Source: an uncultured Pelagibacteraceae bacterium
GTDB taxonomy: Bacteria; Pseudomonadota; Alphaproteobacteria; Pelagibacterales; Pelagibacteraceae
Length of the DNA stretch: 64,000 nucleotides
Assembly: GCA_902628305.1 (NCBI GenBank)
Contig: CACOMK010000003.1
Span: 1-64,000, forward strand
Direction: 5' to 3'
Numbering within the stretch: position 1 is the first letter of the stretch; each line of letters starts with the position of its first letter. Made by a program: the position numbers and the translations under genes. Positions 34,763-43,623 of the stretch are shown here, piece after piece. Under the pieces are notes generated by a model. The model was not told the DNA's origin, did no database searches, and saw nothing but the letters and a program-made list of their open reading frames with translations.

Positions 34763-34783
34763 GCGTTCTGTTGCCAGGTGCCC
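34763..34783 (+). repeat. att-like direct repeat copy 1 (distal, 21 bp match): gcgttctgttgccaggtgccc
   Basis: Identical to the core of the 37151 and 43324 copies; 13 nt after the ppdK stop. Confidence 0.9.
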
Positions 34784-34804
34784 TTAATTTTGTTTTAATT
34801 TAGT

Positions 34805-36094
34805 ATGAGTTTAAAAAAATATTACAACATTGCGAAAATAAAACTCTTTCCTATAACAAGAAGTTTGACAGGTAATGGGGTAAAAAAAACACTAAATATT
34901 ATACAAAAAGAACTTCCTAAACTCAAAATTAAAAGATTTAAATCAGGGACAAAAGTTTTTGATTGGAATATTCCAGAAGAATGGAATGTAAAAGATGCTT
35001 ATGTGATTGATAAATATAATAATAAAATTATTGATTTTAAAAAAAATAACTTACATTTAGTTGGATACTCAACTCCTATTAAAAAAAATATTACAAAAAG
35101 AGAATTATTTAAAAATTTATATTTTTTAAAAGATCAACCTAAAGCGATACCATATATAACTTCTTATTATAAAAGAAGATGGGGTTTTTGTATTTCTTAT
35201 AATGAGTATAAAATTTTAGATAAGCGATATTCTTTAAATGATAAATTTAATGTGGTTATTAATTCAAATTTAAACAAAAGAGGTAATTTAAATTATGGTG
35301 AATTAATTTTAAAAGGTAAATCCAAAAAGGAAATTTTAATTTCTACATATATTTGTCATCCCTCAATGGCAAACAATGAATTATCTGGACCTATAGTGTC
35401 TATGGGATTAATAAATTATTTTAAGAATAAAAAATTAAACAAAACTTTAAGATTTGTTTTTATTCCAGAAACAATTGGTTCAATATCTTATTTGAGTAGA
35501 AATCTTACATATTTAAAAGAGAATGTTATTGGGGGATATAACCTTTCTTGTATTGGTGACGAAAGGCAACACTCTTGTATGTTTTCTAAATATCAAAATT
35601 CACCATCTGACGAAGCGGTTATTGAAGCATATAAATTACTAAAAATAAAAAATTATAAAGTTTATCCATTTTTAAACAGAGGTTCAGATGAAAGACAATA
35701 TAATTCTCCTGGTATTGATTTAAAAATTTCTTCAATTTTTAGAACAAAATATGGTGAATACCCTGAATATCATACTTCATTAGATAATTTTAATCTTGTT
35801 ACATTAAAAGGTTGTGTTGGAGGATTTAATGTTGCTAGAAAATCAATAGAAATATTATTAGAAAGAATTTATCCTAAATGTAAAATAATGTGTGAACCAC
35901 AAATGGGTAAAAGAGGTCTCTATTCAACCTTATCTACTAAAAATGAAAAAAAATTAACCAGAAGTTATATGAATTTTCTTCAATATGCTGATGGAACAAA
36001 TTCTTTAGAAAAGATCTCTAATTTAATTAAATTAGAATTAAATTCTGTTAAAAAAATTAATAGTATTTTATTTAAAAACAATCTACTAGATTAA
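34805..36094 (+). CDS. DUF4910/DUF2172-type aminopeptidase-like protein with C-terminal winged-helix-like region
   Basis: STYICHPSMANNELSGP, RGSDERQYNSPGIDL, EYPEYHTSLDNF; recognised from family memory, not searched. Confidence 0.75.
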   Translation: MSLKKYYNIAKIKLFPITRSLTGNGVKKTLNIIQKELPKLKIKRFKSGTKVFDWNIPEEWNVKDAYVIDKYNNKIIDFKKNNLHLVGYSTPIKKNITKRELFKNLYFLKDQPKAIPYITSYYKRRWGFCISYNEYKILDKRYSLNDKFNVVINSNLNKRGNLNYGELILKGKSKKEILISTYICHPSMANNELSGPIVSMGLINYFKNKKLNKTLRFVFIPETIGSISYLSRNLTYLKENVIGGYNLSCIGDERQHSCMFSKYQNSPSDEAVIEAYKLLKIKNYKVYPFLNRGSDERQYNSPGIDLKISSIFRTKYGEYPEYHTSLDNFNLVTLKGCVGGFNVARKSIEILLERIYPKCKIMCEPQMGKRGLYSTLSTKNEKKLTRSYMNFLQYADGTNSLEKISNLIKLELNSVKKINSILFKNNLLD

Positions 36095-36097
36095 TTT

Positions 36098-36964
36098 ATG
36101 AAAAAAACTAAAGCTTTTCAATTTTTTAACAAAGATACTTCAGTTAAAGAATATTCTGATATGTACAAAAAATTAAGATTAGATATTAGGTATCCTGCCA
36201 ATGTCAAAAGAGAGCAGATTTTTGTAAAACTTTTAAAAAAACATAAACCTAAAAAAATTATAGATGCTGGTTGTGGTGCTGGAATGCCGCTTATTGATAT
36301 TAAAAAGAAAGGTTTTAATATTATTGGTTACGATAAAGCAAAAAATATGGTTATAGAAGCAAAAGAAAATCTTAAAAAAAATAGATTGTCTCCTGATTTA
36401 GTGTTTTATGATGATTTTGAAAATCCTAAAAAAATTAAAAATAATTCTGTAGATTGTATAATTGGTATGGGCGCTTTTTATTATGCTAAAAATGTTAATA
36501 AAACACTTTTAAATCAGAAAAAAAAATTAAAAAAAAATGGTAGGTTAATATTTTCATTAAGAAATAAGTTATTTGATCTAATCACCCTAAATAATTACAC
36601 TAAAAAATTCTTGGATGAGATTTATGAAGTTAAAGATTTAAAAAAAGAATGGAAAAATAAATATAAAAATTTAACAAAGAATTATACTGATAGAAAAAAA
36701 ATAAAGTTAGAAAAAAACATCGATGAAGCAGGTGTTCACAATCACATTCCTCACAACCCCTTAACTATTTCTGATGAAATGGCAAAATTAGGCTTGTCTG
36801 TAGAAGGTATATATTTTTATCACTTTCACGCGTTCCCACCAGTGTTTGAAGTACTTGATAAAAATTATTTTAGAAAAATTTCTTGGAAAATAGACAATCC
36901 ACTTGATTGGAGGGGCTTTTTCTTAGCATCTACTTTTGTTATTGATTGTAAAAAAATCTTTTAA
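36098..36964 (+). CDS. Class I SAM-dependent methyltransferase
   Basis: IIDAGCGAGMPLIDIKKKGFNIIGYD motif I/II. Confidence 0.85.
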   Translation: MKKTKAFQFFNKDTSVKEYSDMYKKLRLDIRYPANVKREQIFVKLLKKHKPKKIIDAGCGAGMPLIDIKKKGFNIIGYDKAKNMVIEAKENLKKNRLSPDLVFYDDFENPKKIKNNSVDCIIGMGAFYYAKNVNKTLLNQKKKLKKNGRLIFSLRNKLFDLITLNNYTKKFLDEIYEVKDLKKEWKNKYKNLTKNYTDRKKIKLEKNIDEAGVHNHIPHNPLTISDEMAKLGLSVEGIYFYHFHAFPPVFEVLDKNYFRKISWKIDNPLDWRGFFLASTFVIDCKKIF

Positions 36965-37035
36965 ACCCTACTTTTCACATATCATCTAATCAAGTTTTCA
37001 AATATATTGACATTTTTCTAATATTTTTATCAAGG

Positions 37036-37125
37036 ATGAATTCTAAATTAATAATTTATAACAAAAGTGATTACTTAAAAATTGTTTTAAAACTCCGTAG
37101 AGAGGTTTTTACAAAAAATTATTGA
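37036..37125 (+). pseudogene. Possible truncated 5' fragment of a CDS ending next to the att repeat
   Basis: aagg-ATG then MNSKLIIYNKSDYLKIVLKLRREVFTKNY*, 25 bp before repeat copy 2; not in the supplied ORF track because it is short. Confidence 0.3.
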
Positions 37126-37150
37126 TATTATTAGATAATATTAAAAAAGA

Positions 37151-37175
37151 GGGGCGTTCTGTTGCCAGGTGCCCC
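37151..37175 (+). repeat. att-like direct repeat copy 2 (25 bp): ggggcgttctgttgccaggtgcccc
   Basis: Exact 25-bp match to copy 3 at 43324. Confidence 0.95.
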
Positions 37176-37583
37176 GAACTTTGTTTCTTGAATCCTGAAA
37201 AACAGTAATCAATCAGGGTGGATCATATCATATGGGTTGTAGGGGTCAAATTAGGAACATCACGACCAAATGTAGACTCAAAAATGAGTCGGGATAAGAC
37301 TCCTGTCGGTCGCTCCTGTTGGAGCTCCCTCCATGGCTCCCCAAGGGATCCTAGTTAAATCCAAGAATTGCAATCCCGTATAATATCGACTCCACCTTTT
37401 ACATAGAAAGGGATCCTACTGCTCTAGGTGTATAGCAAGTCTTTTACAGTCAAACCCATTAAAAACATTTTTAGAAACAAAAGCTTAGCCCAAAAAATTT
37501 TACAAAATTTTGAAACATTTTGACTCAAAATGGACTGGAGCTGCAGGGTGTTTGGCTAATGCAATAAGCATCTTGGATCATGA

Positions 37584-37820
37584 AACTTAACTTGAATTTC
37601 GAGGTAATTTGAATGCATCAGTTACCTTGAATTCCCTTAAATCTTTACTTTGAAAAAAATGAGTCTTTATGCAAATAAGTGAGTCTTTTCAACGTAACTT
37701 AACGTAATATTCAGAGCTACATACGAGTTATTCGAGGTAAGTAAAGGTAACTCCAGGGGGTCTTTTGGAGCTGCTCAAAACTTTTTCAGATTAAGTTTTC
37801 AAGTTAAATAAAGTTAAGTT
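37584..37820. repeat. Cluster of short iteron-like repeats (AACTTAA/TTAAGTT) in noncoding DNA
   Basis: AACTTAA at 37584 and 37696, TTAAGTT at 37791 and 37814; also tcgaggtaa at about 37599 and 37732. Confidence 0.45.
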
Positions 37821-38023
37821 TTGGGGGAATGGCAAGTATTGGTACTTATTAAAACTTTCTGAATTAGTCTCCCGAACAAAAATTCACAGTTACCACTCCC
37901 ATATCTTTCTTACATTGCAACACAGTAAAATCAACAACTCGTCAAATTTTTTTCCATGTTGCAACGGGGATAAATTTTTTTGACAAGTTTGCAATTTAGC
38001 CATGTAGCCGTGTAAGAGAATCA

Positions 38024-40225
38024 TCATTTCGATTTTTTCTTTTTTGTCTTTTTAGTTTTTTTGGTTTTTGATCCAGGGCTCTTGGTACTAGCTGCAGGGA
38101 TCTTGTCCACTGCAACTCTGTGATCTGTAAAGAATGGTTTATAAAGTTTACTGATCTCAGCTGCCGTTTTATTTTTAAGCTCATCATGATTTCTGATTAT
38201 CCAAACTGTAGCTCTTTGAGCAACCTGAGGTATTGGAACTTGTTTCACACATTTACCACCAATTAAGGCTAATGCATTTGCAACTTCTCTTTCTCTGGTA
38301 ACTTTTAATTTTGCTTCTCTTTTTAAGAAATCAAATAACTCTAATGTTGTTACCATAGGTCTATCAAATGGGTGTGATCCCTGAGCAAATTGTTCTTTGA
38401 TATAATCATTGAGAGGTCTATCAGCCATATCGGACATTTCATCTCGATACTTTGTCCAGGGCGCAGGTGCCAATGGGTTAAACTTACTTAAATTTCTATC
38501 AAGTAAATCTGCCAAAACTCCTGCAGGTAAATCGCCAAACAATCTTTGATTATGAAACTCATCAAGCAGCTGCTCATTTCTTTTTGCTTCACTAAAATAA
38601 ACAAAGTACCTAACCTCATTTTTTGGAATAGGGAATGCATCTCTGTAATTGGTATTGATCCAATAATTTGTGACTGTATCTTGCTCAGAGTATTCCTTAT
38701 ACAGCTGCCTTACTCCAATGCTGCCCTCAGTAATAATTGTTTTAAGAGTATTTATAAGCTGTGCTTTTTCACTCCAACTCCCTGAGCTCTTTGCTTCATC
38801 AATTAAAACAGTTTGGTAATTTAATAGATAATTTTTACCTTTATCTAATGCTTCAGCTAATTCAATCTTTCGGGTGTTCTTATGTCCTAAGATATCTCTG
38901 TGCAGGTCAAACAATGATCCTTTCCCTAATTGAAATTCATCTGATTGCATAATGATTGCATTCCTAATTTTTACACCAGGATTTTGCATAGGAAATGAAT
39001 ACCAATCTAAGAAATAATTTCTTTCTTTTTCATGTGGGATTATATGTTCCAACATTGCATAAAAAATATCAGTATCAGCTTTAGGATCTGGCTGCAGCTC
39101 ATTCTTCTCATAGACATTAATCATTATCTTTTTATCTACATGCACAAATCTTTTTGGGTCATTTGGTTTATAAGTAAAATCCACACAGACTTTGCTATCA
39201 GGGTGTTTTTTCCAAAACAGTAACGGGGTGTATTTTGCATCTCTAAAATATTTTGCATATTTCACATCGATAGCTTCTGCATCGTACATTTCCTTATCTT
39301 CCAGATCATAGTATTTTTTTTGTTTCATCATGTATGCAATTCGATTAACAAATTCATGAGTAAACTTTGGCAGCTCTGATCTTCCAGTTATTGCATATAA
39401 GATATTTTTAAAATTATCTTTTTGCTTATCATTCCAACCTAAAGATTTTGCTAATGTAGGTAACCCAACTATCTCTTTGTTTGGATCATCATTTTTATAG
39501 ACATGTTTTACTTTGGCTAATCTTTCTTTAGTGTCATCTCTTGCAAGATTACTAACAACCTCAATCAAGTGTAATGTATCAGCTTCCTCAACTTTGTGGT
39601 GCCATAGTGTTGCTGCTACTTCCCAGATATATTTGTTCCTTTCTGCTTTTGCATAATTCCTAAGAATTACCCCTGCAGCTGCTAACATTGCCGTGGATTT
39701 ATATAAAGAATCATAAGTAGTTTCGCCTATAGTTTCATACTCATTCCATTCAACATGTTCATTTTCAGGATACTTACCTGAGCACATAGAATAATGATCA
39801 TAAGCTCTTAACTCGACTAGGGTCTTTTTTGCAACATCTTCATCTTCAAATATAAAAGCTTTGCGAGTATGTTTTTTATTAAGATCTAAAACTTTATATA
39901 ACCAATGAGATGCAGGTGTACTTTCCCTCCCATATTTCATTTTTGTTGGTGGCATAAACTCATGAGCAAGAGCTCTCGTTTCTGCACAGTCAAGATCTAG
40001 GTCTAAGATGTTACCCTCGCCAGTAATGATATGATAATTTGCAAATGGTTTTATTTCCTCAGTAGATTTAATTATTTTTTTTCTTCGCTTATCCCATGAG
40101 ATATCTACTTGCTTTGTTCCATAATCATATTCAAAGATTGTTGCATTTTCTCTGAGTAGAACTGCTAGGGCATCTTTATTTAGTATTGCAGCTTTATTGT
40201 TGATTTTAGGGGCTTCTGAGCTCAT
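38024..40225 (-). CDS. Primase-polymerase/SF3 helicase-like replication protein (DUF5906-like C-terminal half)
   Basis: N-terminal prim-pol-like GNILDLDLDCAETRAL...GRESTPASHWLYKV; C-terminal ATPase-like GKGSLFD...NYQTVLIDEAKSSGSWSEKAQLINTLKTIITEGSIGVRQLYKE; ...YWINTNYRDAFPI. Confidence 0.75.
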   Translation of the reverse strand: MSSEAPKINNKAAILNKDALAVLLRENATIFEYDYGTKQVDISWDKRRKKIIKSTEEIKPFANYHIITGEGNILDLDLDCAETRALAHEFMPPTKMKYGRESTPASHWLYKVLDLNKKHTRKAFIFEDEDVAKKTLVELRAYDHYSMCSGKYPENEHVEWNEYETIGETTYDSLYKSTAMLAAAGVILRNYAKAERNKYIWEVAATLWHHKVEEADTLHLIEVVSNLARDDTKERLAKVKHVYKNDDPNKEIVGLPTLAKSLGWNDKQKDNFKNILYAITGRSELPKFTHEFVNRIAYMMKQKKYYDLEDKEMYDAEAIDVKYAKYFRDAKYTPLLFWKKHPDSKVCVDFTYKPNDPKRFVHVDKKIMINVYEKNELQPDPKADTDIFYAMLEHIIPHEKERNYFLDWYSFPMQNPGVKIRNAIIMQSDEFQLGKGSLFDLHRDILGHKNTRKIELAEALDKGKNYLLNYQTVLIDEAKSSGSWSEKAQLINTLKTIITEGSIGVRQLYKEYSEQDTVTNYWINTNYRDAFPIPKNEVRYFVYFSEAKRNEQLLDEFHNQRLFGDLPAGVLADLLDRNLSKFNPLAPAPWTKYRDEMSDMADRPLNDYIKEQFAQGSHPFDRPMVTTLELFDFLKREAKLKVTREREVANALALIGGKCVKQVPIPQVAQRATVWIIRNHDELKNKTAAEISKLYKPFFTDHRVAVDKIPAASTKSPGSKTKKTKKTKKKKSK

Positions 40226-40662
40226 TAATCGTCCCTCCCCATACTTAGCCTTAAAAGTGTTCGCACAACTTCTTTTTCAGCTTCGGTCAACTGTGAAAGA
40301 GCTTTACCTGGTGCAACTGAATCTAAATCTAGTTTTTTAATTCTAGGTTTTTCTTTTTGCTTCAAGTAATCAGATAAGAATATAACCTTACCACCTCCAG
40401 CCATTTGCAAAGGTATATTTCTTAAATAGCTTTTAGGTTTTGATTTTAACCAATCAGTAAATGTTTGACCTTTTGTTTTCTCTTTTTCAAAGTCAACCCG
40501 TAACTGTGAGATAATATCTGATTCAAGATCAAAGATTATATCAGCCTCATCTTTTGCTAACTGCTGCAGCTGCTCTTTTTTGATAGGTTTATTTTTGTTC
40601 TCTACATTCCCACCTTTTGCATAAATATTAAATGTGGGATCTTTTATTGTTCTAATTGACAT
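40225..40662 (-). CDS. Hypothetical protein, element-encoded
   Basis: 145 aa ORF, start/stop contact with primase ORF. Confidence 0.7.
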   Translation of the reverse strand: MSIRTIKDPTFNIYAKGGNVENKNKPIKKEQLQQLAKDEADIIFDLESDIISQLRVDFEKEKTKGQTFTDWLKSKPKSYLRNIPLQMAGGGKVIFLSDYLKQKEKPRIKKLDLDSVAPGKALSQLTEAEKEVVRTLLRLSMGRDD

Positions 40663-40987
40663 GTCTAAATACCTCCAATCTCTTTTGTAATTTTTTGATT
40701 TGTTCGTCTTGATCTGACAGCATCTTTTGAGCTGTAGTTAGGAAACCAATTAGACTTTCCTCAGATACTTTGTTTCTTTCCTCTAATGATGCAACAGCTT
40801 TCGCAAGATTTTCAATTACCTTAACTGACTTTCTTGCAAGTAGTGACATTGATTTATAATCAATCTGATCGTGTTGACATACTGCAATCTTCCTGCTCAA
40901 CTTATTTCTTTTGAGTAGAGCTTCTCTGATTGTTTTGGATTTAGGATATCTTTCTGTTAAATGTTTTTTCGGGATCCTAGGCATCAT
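40652..40987 (-). CDS. Hypothetical basic/coiled-coil protein, element-encoded
   Basis: 111 aa, overlaps neighbours by about 10 bp in operon fashion. Confidence 0.65.
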   Translation of the reverse strand: MMPRIPKKHLTERYPKSKTIREALLKRNKLSRKIAVCQHDQIDYKSMSLLARKSVKVIENLAKAVASLEERNKVSEESLIGFLTTAQKMLSDQDEQIKKLQKRLEVFRHVN

Positions 40988-41426
40988 CTACCCCCAAAAT
41001 ATATGCAAGACCTGCTAACTGTTTTTTTGAACGTCTTGGTGGTTTTATCTCTTCAACAGGAATATCTTCGATAGCACCATAAGTATGAGTGATTGTATTC
41101 TCAAATGGATTTATTTTAGGTAATGCTGCAATGTCAATTTTTACTGCAGCCCCAGTATCAGGTTTCTTGCTGAATGGCTCTCTACGTGGCTCTGAGGGAT
41201 TCTTTTTTTTATATTTTCGCTCAATATCTCTGAATTGCTTCTTTTCCTGATTATTAGCAACAGACTTTAAAAGCTTATAATTATCCTGAGCTGTAAATTT
41301 TTTCTTTAATTCTTGCTCAGTATAAATCCCGTCATCAGCTGCATTGTAGATGTAATTTGTACCGTCATACTTATTCATTGCTTCAGTGATTGATTGATTA
41401 AATGTCTTTGTCTTTTTCATTATCAA
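40977..41426 (-). CDS. Hypothetical protein, element-encoded
   Basis: 149 aa, overlapping co-directional ORF. Confidence 0.65.
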   Translation of the reverse strand: MIMKKTKTFNQSITEAMNKYDGTNYIYNAADDGIYTEQELKKKFTAQDNYKLLKSVANNQEKKQFRDIERKYKKKNPSEPRREPFSKKPDTGAAVKIDIAALPKINPFENTITHTYGAIEDIPVEEIKPPRRSKKQLAGLAYILGVDDA

Positions 41427-41847
41427 CCTCCTTAACTAATTCCAAAATTCTAGGATCTTCGCTGCCTCTAAAGTATGCAGCTGCGTCCCCACTTAAATCA
41501 AACACCTCATTGAATTCTCTATCCATTTCTTTGTAGAGCTCATAAGCTTCATCTTGATTTAATTTTTTAGGCTTATATTTTTTTCTTAAATCTTTCTTAT
41601 TTGTTGCAGGGTTTGGATCATGCTTCATGATAAACTCGTTATGTCTATCCACATTGAAATTCCAGTTTTCCTGCTCTTTTGTTAGAGCTGCTTCTCTCTT
41701 AAATAGATTGCTTAATTTAAGCCAAAGATTAAGAGCTGCATCACTTGCTTTTACTGAAGATCTATAAGCATCTTTTAATGTATCTTTAAATGCATCTTCT
41801 ATTAATAGGTTTGAGTTGTGTCCTATATCACGTTTGTTTTTTTCCAT
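41398..41847 (-). CDS. Hypothetical protein, element-encoded
   Basis: 149 aa, MEKNKRDIGHNSNLLIEDAFKDTLKDAY...; overlapping co-directional ORF. Confidence 0.65.
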   Translation of the reverse strand: MEKNKRDIGHNSNLLIEDAFKDTLKDAYRSSVKASDAALNLWLKLSNLFKREAALTKEQENWNFNVDRHNEFIMKHDPNPATNKKDLRKKYKPKKLNQDEAYELYKEMDREFNEVFDLSGDAAAYFRGSEDPRILELVKEVDNEKDKDI

Positions 41848-42038
41848 TTATTACTCGCTGATTGTTTGGGAGGGTTACAGAGTGCAGCTGCACCCTCCAC
41901 ATTGATTTCATCAGCAATGGACTTTAGATGAATATTGTAGGTGTAAGAATTGGGAATATAATTATCGTTGCAACGATTAACCCAAATATTTCTGTGTATG
42001 TATTTCTCACTATTTATTTTTATCATTATAAACTCCAT
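41823..42038 (-). CDS. Hypothetical small protein, element-encoded
   Basis: 71 aa, first ORF of the run after the gap following int. Confidence 0.45.
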   Translation of the reverse strand: MEFIMIKINSEKYIHRNIWVNRCNDNYIPNSYTYNIHLKSIADEINVEGAAALCNPPKQSASNKWKKTNVI

Positions 42039-42225
42039 TACCTTAACTGCACTTATCTACGATGTTTCTTGATTATTTTTTCTTTGGTAAGATAGGAATT
42101 TATTTAAGCTCGTACTATCAACGAACAATACTTATATACAGATCAATCATGACTCTTTCAAGGCACATAATTGAGCTCAGCATATGCAAGTTTGGAAACC
42201 ATTAACCTGTAGGACTCTCTGTATA

Positions 42226-43257
42226 TTATCCTATAGATTTTTCTATTTTTTTAACTTTTTCAATTAAGTCTTCAGGTTTAATTCTTGCGTATCTTTGCAA
42301 CTGTTTCCAATCTTTATGTCCACTTAAAACTGACACCTCTGGAATTGTCATTCCACTTAATAATGCATTCGTACAGAAACAAGCTCTTAGATCATGAAAT
42401 CTAAAGTTACTAATAGCAGCTCTTCTACATGCAATATTGAAATGCTTTCTTAATCTTCTTGCTAAGATATTAAATAATGTATCCCCGAACCTGTGTCTTT
42501 TTAAAATTTCAAATGCTGTATCTGATAGAGGTATTGTTCTATCTTCCCCGTTCTTAGTGTCCAAGAATGTACAGAGTCTTTTTTCAAAATCTACATGATC
42601 TCTTTTGAGTTTTAATATTTCGCCCTGTCTTGCTCCAGTCTCATAAGCAAAGATAACTATATCTGATAGCACTGGCATATTGCCCATTAAACATGCTTCA
42701 AGTAACTTTTCATACTCAGCTTTTGTAAGTACACGATCCCTTGCATTTTTAACTTTATGCATCGTGACTAATTCAAATGGATTATACGGAGGCATTGTTA
42801 TTCCCCAAACTCTTTTTGCAGTGTTCCAAACATTTTGCAACATATGCAAATATTTATTTGTTGTAGCAGGAGCTCTAACTAGATCCGATTCTTTTTTAAA
42901 CTTATATAAATGATGAGCTTTCAACTGTGTAATTGTATAATTTGAAACTTCATTCCTAACTAATAGATTTATCTTTGCAGTCTCTTCCTTAACACCCTTT
43001 TTGTTGATAGTGATTTCATCTCTGTATTTTTCAAGCAAAGCTCTCACTGTAGTTTTAGATGCTTTAGTTAAATCTTCAAATTGACCTGTTTCAATTTCAT
43101 GCTCAATCTTCCTGCCCCACTTCTTACCAATCTTTAGGTCATCAAAACTTTTAGATAATCTTGGATAACCTTTACGTTGGATTTCAATTAACCACTTTCC
43201 TGATTTTTTTCTTCGATAGTACATTTCAATCACTTTCTGCAAAATAATCACAACCAC
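42226..43257 (-). CDS. int: Tyrosine recombinase/phage-type integrase
   Basis: TGARQGEILKL (Arg I), FRFHDLRACF (HxxR), LSGHKDWKQLQRYARI (H/Tyr) catalytic motifs; adjacent to att repeat. Confidence 0.95.
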   Translation of the reverse strand: MVVIILQKVIEMYYRRKKSGKWLIEIQRKGYPRLSKSFDDLKIGKKWGRKIEHEIETGQFEDLTKASKTTVRALLEKYRDEITINKKGVKEETAKINLLVRNEVSNYTITQLKAHHLYKFKKESDLVRAPATTNKYLHMLQNVWNTAKRVWGITMPPYNPFELVTMHKVKNARDRVLTKAEYEKLLEACLMGNMPVLSDIVIFAYETGARQGEILKLKRDHVDFEKRLCTFLDTKNGEDRTIPLSDTAFEILKRHRFGDTLFNILARRLRKHFNIACRRAAISNFRFHDLRACFCTNALLSGMTIPEVSVLSGHKDWKQLQRYARIKPEDLIEKVKKIEKSIG

Positions 43258-43323
43258 AGCCCGACCAAATTGCTTAACTGTTTAATTAACGATTGATTTG
43301 CTTAACGTTTCTTGAAAAGTTTA

Positions 43324-43348
43324 GGGGCGTTCTGTTGCCAGGTGCCCC
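43324..43348 (+). repeat. att-like direct repeat copy 3, forming the 3' end of the tmRNA coding piece
   Basis: 25-bp exact match to 37151-37175; contiguous with the ssrA coding piece on the minus strand. Confidence 0.95.
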
Positions 43349-43490
43349 GGACCCCGTTTGCTTAATTAACTAAGTTAATTAGGCAGCAAGTGCGTAACTT
43401 TCGTTAGCAATTATAATTTAGCCCGTTACGGTGGAACAATCCCGAACGAAAGAATAGCCTTTAGTCACCCGTCGAATCTAGTTCACCCCC
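43324..43490 (-). ncRNA. ssrA: Two-piece (permuted) tmRNA, coding piece, tag ANESYALAA
   Basis: Minus strand GGGGGTGAACTAGATTCGACGGGTGACTAAAGG..., then GCT AAC GAA AGT TAC GCA CTT GCT GCC TAA at 43408-43379, post-stop hairpin TAATTAAC-TTA-GTTAATTA. 3' end approximate. Confidence 0.93.
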
Positions 43491-43501
43491 ATAAGTTGTA
43501 A

Positions 43502-43595
43502 TGGTGGAGGTGGTGGGTACTGCCCCCACGTCCGAAATGGTTATTACGAAATTCGTTTATCGTCGTAGTTGGAAAACCAACTTTATTAATATAAA
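43502..43595 (-). ncRNA. ssrA: Two-piece (permuted) tmRNA, acceptor piece (5' end approximate)
   Basis: Minus strand ...GGACGTGGGGGCAGTACCCACCACCTCCACCA with encoded CCA; CACCTCC pairs with 5' GGGGGTG of the coding piece; 11-nt intervening segment 43491-43501. Confidence 0.9.
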
Positions 43596-43623
43596 AGTAA
43601 TTACAACAGATTCAATAACAATC

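Follow-up and report, generated by a model that had tools for sequence, protein, structure and literature searches.

A probable phage satellite integrated at the tmRNA gene of a Pelagibacteraceae bacterium, and related elements in Pelagibacterales

A 64,000-nucleotide stretch of DNA from an uncultured Pelagibacteraceae bacterium (GCA_902628305.1, contig CACOMK010000003.1, positions 1-64,000 of the forward strand; hereafter, the window) carries a 6,173-bp unit inserted at the gene for transfer-messenger RNA (tmRNA). We consider it likely that this unit is an integrated phage satellite, and we propose that it is excised, replicated as concatemers and packaged by a helper phage of the HTVC023P type. 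The initial annotation had read the unit as built on a satellite plan, and this interpretation gains support from two findings: searches with the small genes gave no structural or terminase homology, and close relatives of the host have empty sites. Terminase small subunit (TerS) genes in related elements that have no recognized capsid or portal gene point in the same direction.

Borders and gene content of the unit

The length of the unit is set by exact direct repeats at its two ends (Table 1). Such repeats had been noted around a 6.2-kb segment and given as 25 bp; the repeats stand, but each is in fact 27 bp long. The integrase-proximal copy lies in a circularly permuted tmRNA gene of the alphaproteobacterial type, whose 3′ end it constitutes, and the gene is left intact after insertion. 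tmRNA is the host's own ribosome rescue RNA. On reading the sequence, the attachment (att) repeat appears to match the hairpin (GGGGC...GCCCC) at the end of the tmRNA coding piece, and not the tRNA-like acceptor part. This hairpin is predicted to fold as expected, yet no better than shuffled sequence.

Among the closest congeners, three loci (L051, L052 and L053) are empty, only a few bases separating the end of ppdK from the intact 3′ end of the tmRNA gene, and neither the integrase nor the primase of the window was found at the tmRNA locus in any of 20 congeners. The segment is therefore not a fixed part of this locus in all relatives. A chance repeat is ruled out by the exact match over 27 bp, its position inside the tmRNA gene and the relatives with empty sites. 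Together, the integrase gene, the att repeats and the empty sites support site-specific integration of an element that brings its own integrase.

The call of open reading frames (ORFs) bore out the layout first described, namely an integrase, five small ORFs whose neighbouring ends touch or overlap, a 733-aa protein and, beyond its gene, 847 bp without a long ORF. Judged against its relative in element L093, the integrase more likely starts at the ATG given in Table 1. The 71-aa ORF is, by its position, a candidate regulator or excisionase. The 733-aa protein had been called prim-pol/SF3-helicase-like, in keeping with its matches to DUF5906 (PF19263; 32.5 bits, above the curated cut-off of 27.6) and to a PHROG DNA primase; a comparison with PDB sequences returned nothing. 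Read by eye, it has primase-like DLDLD and S..H motifs near the N terminus, followed by a putative Walker A (GKGS), Walker B (LIDE) and motif C (WINTN). In two relatives, L014 and L103, an archaeo-eukaryotic primase domain (AEP-TOTE) and DUF5906 both score. The DUF5906 SF3-type helicase and PHROG primase matches predict that the element brings its own replication functions.

The small ORFs had no significant match in Pfam, PHROGs, NCBIfam or PADLOC, and three of them, compared with 50,697 phage records by tblastn, had none there. Profile searches of the element's ORFs against Pfam and PHROGs revealed no capsid, portal, tail or large terminase subunit gene, in agreement with the lack of virion genes initially reported. 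An anti-phage defence island was considered but rejected, as no significant PADLOC match was obtained. A short motif of the 145-aa family gave merely chance-level matches among phages, to Gordonia phages. The AlphaFold models obtained for the 145-aa protein (pLDDT 55) and for the replication protein (pLDDT 45) were of insufficient quality to search for similar folds and were set aside.

Table 1. Features of the window, with coordinates and strand, and related elements, with integration site
Feature	Position or site	Strand	Size	Evidence or remark
Att repeat, distal copy	37150-37176		27 bp	Exact repeat
Att repeat, integrase-proximal copy; apparent terminal hairpin of tmRNA coding piece	43323-43349		27 bp	Exact repeat
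Permuted tmRNA gene (ssrA); 3′ end is the attachment site	43320-43619	-		ARAGORN; Rfam RF01849, 225 bits, E 6.9e-64
Tyrosine integrase	42226-43257, probable start 43224	-		PF00589, E 6.7e-21; PHROG integrase, E 8.7e-56
ORF	41823-42038	-	71 aa	Homologue in L092, 40%, E 1e-6
ORF with N-terminal IGHN motif	41398-41847	-	149 aa	No family match; possible homologue in L013
Core protein, C-terminal GLAYILG motif	40977-41426, probable ATG 41420	-	149 aa	Homologues in at least 8 other elements
ORF, predicted coiled-coil-like	40652-40987	-	111 aa	Homologues in L013 and L092
Core protein and family marker, motifs IKDPTFN..KGGNVEN and GQSFSDWL	40225-40662	-	145 aa	Homologues in at least 10 elements
Predicted replication protein: SF3-type helicase (DUF5906), primase-like N-terminal motifs	38024-40225	-	733 aa	PF19263, E 1.5e-7; PHROG DNA primase, E 8e-25
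Noncoding site	37870-37900		31 bp	Common to L092 and L085/L094, at most 2 mismatches
TAGGATCCC box 1 of family cis-site	37410-37418	-
TAGGATCCC box 2	37345-37353	-
GCTCC-AACA-GGAGC hairpin	37312-37325	-		Covarying stem in ten elements
Att-flanked cargo islet, no integrase	34784-37149	+		Pfam; DUF4910 peptidase-like protein 34805-36094, SAM methyltransferase 36098-36964
Third att core copy, outer end of islet	34763-34783			21 of 21 bp
Related element L013	tRNA-Asn		6.4 kb
Related element L014	tRNA-Leu		7.8 kb
Related element L100	tRNA-Leu		8.8 kb
Related element L016	tRNA-Glu		4.2 kb
Related elements L015, L086	tRNA-Thr
Related element L084/L097	tRNA-Met		5.7 kb
Related element L085/L094	tRNA-Arg		6.4 kb
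Related element L092	tRNA-Gly		6.1 kb
Related element L095	beside tRNA-Val/Asp		8.8 kb
Related element L093	tmRNA		5.4 kb

Related elements and their links to phages

Pelagibacteraceae genomes were queried with the primase and then with the 145-aa protein. This revealed about 15 related Pelagibacterales elements of 4-9 kb, sited at tmRNA or at one of several tRNA genes, with a conserved gene order and mostly flanked by direct repeats of 38-75 bp. The 145-aa family is present in 11 of 397 Pelagibacteraceae genomes (13 of 298 in a wider draw). When the proteins of 12 elements were clustered, the 145-aa type was found in 10 and the 149-aa type, with GLAY(I/L)LG at its end, in 9, the replication protein being variable.

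Relative to the window, L092 has a primase 81% identical, with 77%, 75% and 60% identity for the 145-aa, 149-aa and 111-aa proteins, but its integrase, at tRNA-Gly, is only 29% identical. L093 shares the 25-bp att core in tmRNA as well as the core proteins, has an integrase 59% identical to that of the window, and differs in carrying an AAA_25 replication protein and a TerS. Thus, in this pair the integrase type appears to track the site and the core proteins to track the family. More broadly, sequence comparison indicates that integrases and replication proteins are swapped among elements while the two core proteins, of 145 and 149 aa, are nearly constant.

TerS genes (PF03592, Terminase_2, above cut-off) occur in L083, L084, L093 and L095, and no capsid or portal gene was recognized in these four elements, which argues for satellites rather than decayed prophages. 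The best phage match of the L084 TerS is to HTVC027P (37.6%, E 6e-19), followed by phage 023Pt_psg01; the L083 TerS matches these two equally (E 1e-10), then HTVC023P, and weakly the Staphylococcus record PT1028. The N terminus of the L014 replication protein is 32% identical to the HTVC027P primase. An alignment scan of viral contigs with the 145-aa protein yielded L103, a 9,003-bp IMG/VR contig that holds a whole element with no host DNA and no recognized virion genes. Its ends are identical over 81 bp, so that it is circular or concatemeric, which makes it an extrachromosomal member of the family.

Some members showed further features. L083 and L095, which have no primase/helicase, encode a 616-617-aa protein (L083:10295-12145, L095:12417-14270) that looks by eye like a DNA polymerase A or an exonuclease, and may represent a third kind of replication module. 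A nuclease-like protein of 113-115 aa is conserved in larger members (L014:7657-7998, L018:7745-8092, L103:3314-3655); the L014 copy matches a PHROG Holliday junction resolvase (E 2e-11) and, weakly, PDDEXK. In HTVC027P, the gene for the ribosome rescue factor ArfA (gp30, L088:15768-15944; PMC12753301) adjoins the TerS gene, and the window element sits in a tmRNA gene, which may be coincidence.

Candidate cis-acting sites in the noncoding DNA

The att-distal noncoding DNA of the family contains a site made of two TAGGATCCC boxes about 62-65 bp apart; in several members, conservation extends further around box 1. Of 349 congeneric genomes, 5 had the paired boxes, and each of these bears an element; the reversed control gave 0. 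Four of the matches lie in known elements; the fifth, L120, lies beside core-protein-like ORFs at the same nadA-ppdK locus. One ORF there (L120:1540-2190, 216 aa), in an element truncated at the end of the contig, seems by eye to be a fusion of a 149-aa-type N terminus with a 145-aa-type C terminus.

A hairpin with an AACA loop follows 23-37 nt past box 2, or past the sole box, in the window and five other elements. Such hairpins occur in the noncoding DNA of ten elements and were absent from L013, L015, L083 and L100; for the nine that were shuffle-tested, 0-1 of 300 shuffles were as good. Within the 64 kb of the window, only one AACA-loop hairpin has a stem of at least 5, and it is the one at the cis-site of the element. 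The stems vary and covary, with 88.6% of cells paired and 23 double changes against 8.4 expected, a pairing count that is partly built in because the loop was chosen after some sequences had been viewed and the hairpins were selected as hairpins. The noncoding region matched no Rfam family.

Among the loci compared, a separate 31-bp site is shared only with L092 and L085/L094, and it was found in 2 of 397 genomes. That it is an origin bound by a single replication protein was considered but rejected, since L085 has the site but an AAA_25 helicase. As these cis-sites are common to elements with different integrases and helicases, the simplest reading is a common trans-acting factor, e.g., a helper terminase.

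Proposed life cycle, alternatives and known systems

A satellite life cycle could proceed as follows. Upon infection by a helper pelagiphage, probably a lytic one of the HTVC023P type, the integrase would excise the unit as a circle, in which one 27-bp att is predicted to link the 43322 side to the 37177 side, and the replication protein would copy this circle into head-to-tail concatemers. The helper terminase would then package these into full-size helper capsids; as an HTVC023P-type genome is about 59 kb, each capsid would hold roughly 9-10 copies of the element. As the start of packaging or replication, the box-hairpin site is the strongest candidate. Members that encode a TerS would use it to redirect packaging, and the window element, which has no terminase gene, would depend on a site that the terminase of the helper recognizes. 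A role at the interface with the helper is proposed for the two core proteins.

More tentatively, and with rather less confidence than for the satellite nature of the unit itself, we propose that the elements form a distinct, uncatalogued family of SAR11 satellites of HTVC023P-type pelagiphages. This family would be defined by the two core proteins and by a cis-acting packaging or origin site (paired TAGGATCCC boxes and AACA hairpin), with interchangeable integrases, helicases and TerS, and its tmRNA-specific integrase would mobilize islets in trans.

Several observations weigh against packaging by such a helper. Scans of the window element against four libraries recognized neither a TerS nor any gene for capsid remodelling or defence, and the phage-like TerS of the relatives shows packaging in those relatives at most. 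The 31-bp site and the box region had no significant match in known phages, and so no helper cos/pac counterpart, and neither the box pair nor the GC-rich hairpin turned up in HTVC027P or HTVC023P. Viral contigs scanned singly with the window primase or integrase yielded no relative, alignment scans with the primase and the 149-aa protein yielded one weak relative or none, and exact DNA patterns yielded none. L103 may come from a sample other than a virion fraction; projects numbered close to its own appear to be marine viral metagenomes. A cellular episome could likewise assemble as a circle.

These points bear on a first alternative, which we regard as unlikely: a plasmid-like integrative replicon that is autonomous and needs no phage particles to spread, moving instead through vesicles, transformation or a conjugative helper, with TerS gained by some relatives only. 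An integrase and a primase/helicase suffice for an integrative replicon, DUF5906 proteins are also found on small plasmids, the window element has no TerS, and L103 could be an excised episome. Against this, L103 came from a viral contig set, and Terminase_2 stands beside the same core proteins in four relatives, where it makes little sense without a capsid; moreover, library scans of the window element recognized no relaxase, partition or toxin-antitoxin gene.

The neighbourhood of the unit bears on a second alternative. A third copy of the att core marks the outer end of an adjacent 2.4-kb islet, so that islet and 6.2-kb element lie in tandem at this locus. The islet methyltransferase recurs at the same site, without the element, in another genome (G313, locus L054). 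The islet (34763-37176) is possibly mobilized in trans by tmRNA-specific integrases. At the tmRNA loci of other congeners (L055, L058-L066), one to three att-core copies bound different integrase-free islets, some with apparent sugar-nucleotide enzymes (L063). The presence of two or three att-core copies around such islets in several congeners indicates that the tmRNA 3′ end is an integration hotspot in the genus.

The unit might accordingly be seen as a tycheposon-like element that moves host genes at a tmRNA hotspot, with the islet as its cargo. Its integration at tRNA/tmRNA genes, the three att copies in tandem and the integrase-free, att-flanked islets of many congeners fit this view, but there is no recognizable cargo inside the element, and the islet is a separate att-bounded unit whose methyltransferase is also found in L054, where the element is missing. 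We therefore judge it very improbable as a full account, although satellite and cargo-mobilizing roles are compatible. The least probable alternative, a degraded prophage that has lost its structural genes, was considered for its phage-type integrase and primase and rejected, because divergent elements keep a compact layout with the same gene order and coding capacity, capsid, portal or tail genes were not seen in any relative that has these core proteins, and the PHROG scan of the window element shows no structural gene.

The SAR11-killing phages are possibly the commonest in the sea. A satellite family tied to SAR11 and pelagiphages would bring a third partner into the main phage-host interaction there, in hosts that had been thought too streamlined for such baggage. 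It would also constitute a compact, testable system: TerS suggests a helper, the excision junction can be predicted, the candidate site for packaging or origin has a strong sequence signature, and phages and hosts are in culture as pairs, HTVC027P and HTCC1062 being an established one.

The element had initially been put forward as an undescribed system. This was too strong, since marine satellites are already known as a kind, comprising the phage-inducible chromosomal minimalist islands (PICMI) and virion-encapsidated integrative mobile elements (VEIMEs), which include elements of such size and plan, and the tycheposons. VEIMEs are reportedly a class defined by capture, not a family defined by shared proteins. 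Our literature search, which did not extend to the VEIME paper of Eppley et al. 2022, found no description of this SAR11 family; such elements may be included there.

Unlike the element, the proposed helpers, HTVC023P-type pelagiphages, are complete lytic phages that have virion genes and a size of about 59 kb. Phage-inducible chromosomal islands (PICIs) resemble the element in having an integrase and their own replication protein, and SAR11 relatives have a private TerS as well. In contrast, the window element has no TerS gene, and hence no PICI-like private TerS; none of the named PICI interference genes had a recognized homologue, and the SAR11 element is smaller, with other core proteins. 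Tycheposons, of Prochlorococcus and others, likewise have a tyrosine recombinase, occupy tRNA/tmRNA genes in marine bacteria with streamlined genomes, and lie near cargo islands. They are described as large and cargo-carrying, at 4-200 kb (PMC10872708), whereas the SAR11 element is compact and carries no cargo itself, the att-flanked islet lying separately beside it. VEIMEs are marine integrative elements found in virions and proposed to be satellites, as cited in three reports (PMC10803314, PMC11389934, PMC10690885); compared by description only, the window element falls plausibly within this loosely defined class.

The closest worked-out parallel appears to be PICMI115 of Vibrio. In the report on the PICMI of Vibrionaceae (PMC10803314), this island has 6,110 bp, 17-bp repeats, an integrase, AlpA, a primase, three unknowns and no terS. 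PICMI differ in integrating downstream of fis in Vibrionaceae, the SAR11 elements being at tmRNA/tRNA genes in Pelagibacterales, and in a core of int, alpA and primase; the window element has the integrase and primase, and Pfam recognized no AlpA-like protein in it, with weak HTH_17/AlpA matches in relatives. Some SAR11 relatives carry TerS, and the sections of the PICMI report consulted (PMC10803314) mention no counterpart of the box-hairpin site or of the two core proteins. The likeness extends to a size of about 6.1 kb, an integrase and primase with a few small unknown genes, short direct repeats, and the lack of capsid-remodelling genes and terS. It would also extend to a virulent helper and to packaging: the same source describes 8-copy concatemers of PICMI115 packaged by a virulent phage (PMC10803314), and concatemer packaging, shown in PICMI, is what we predict for the window element.

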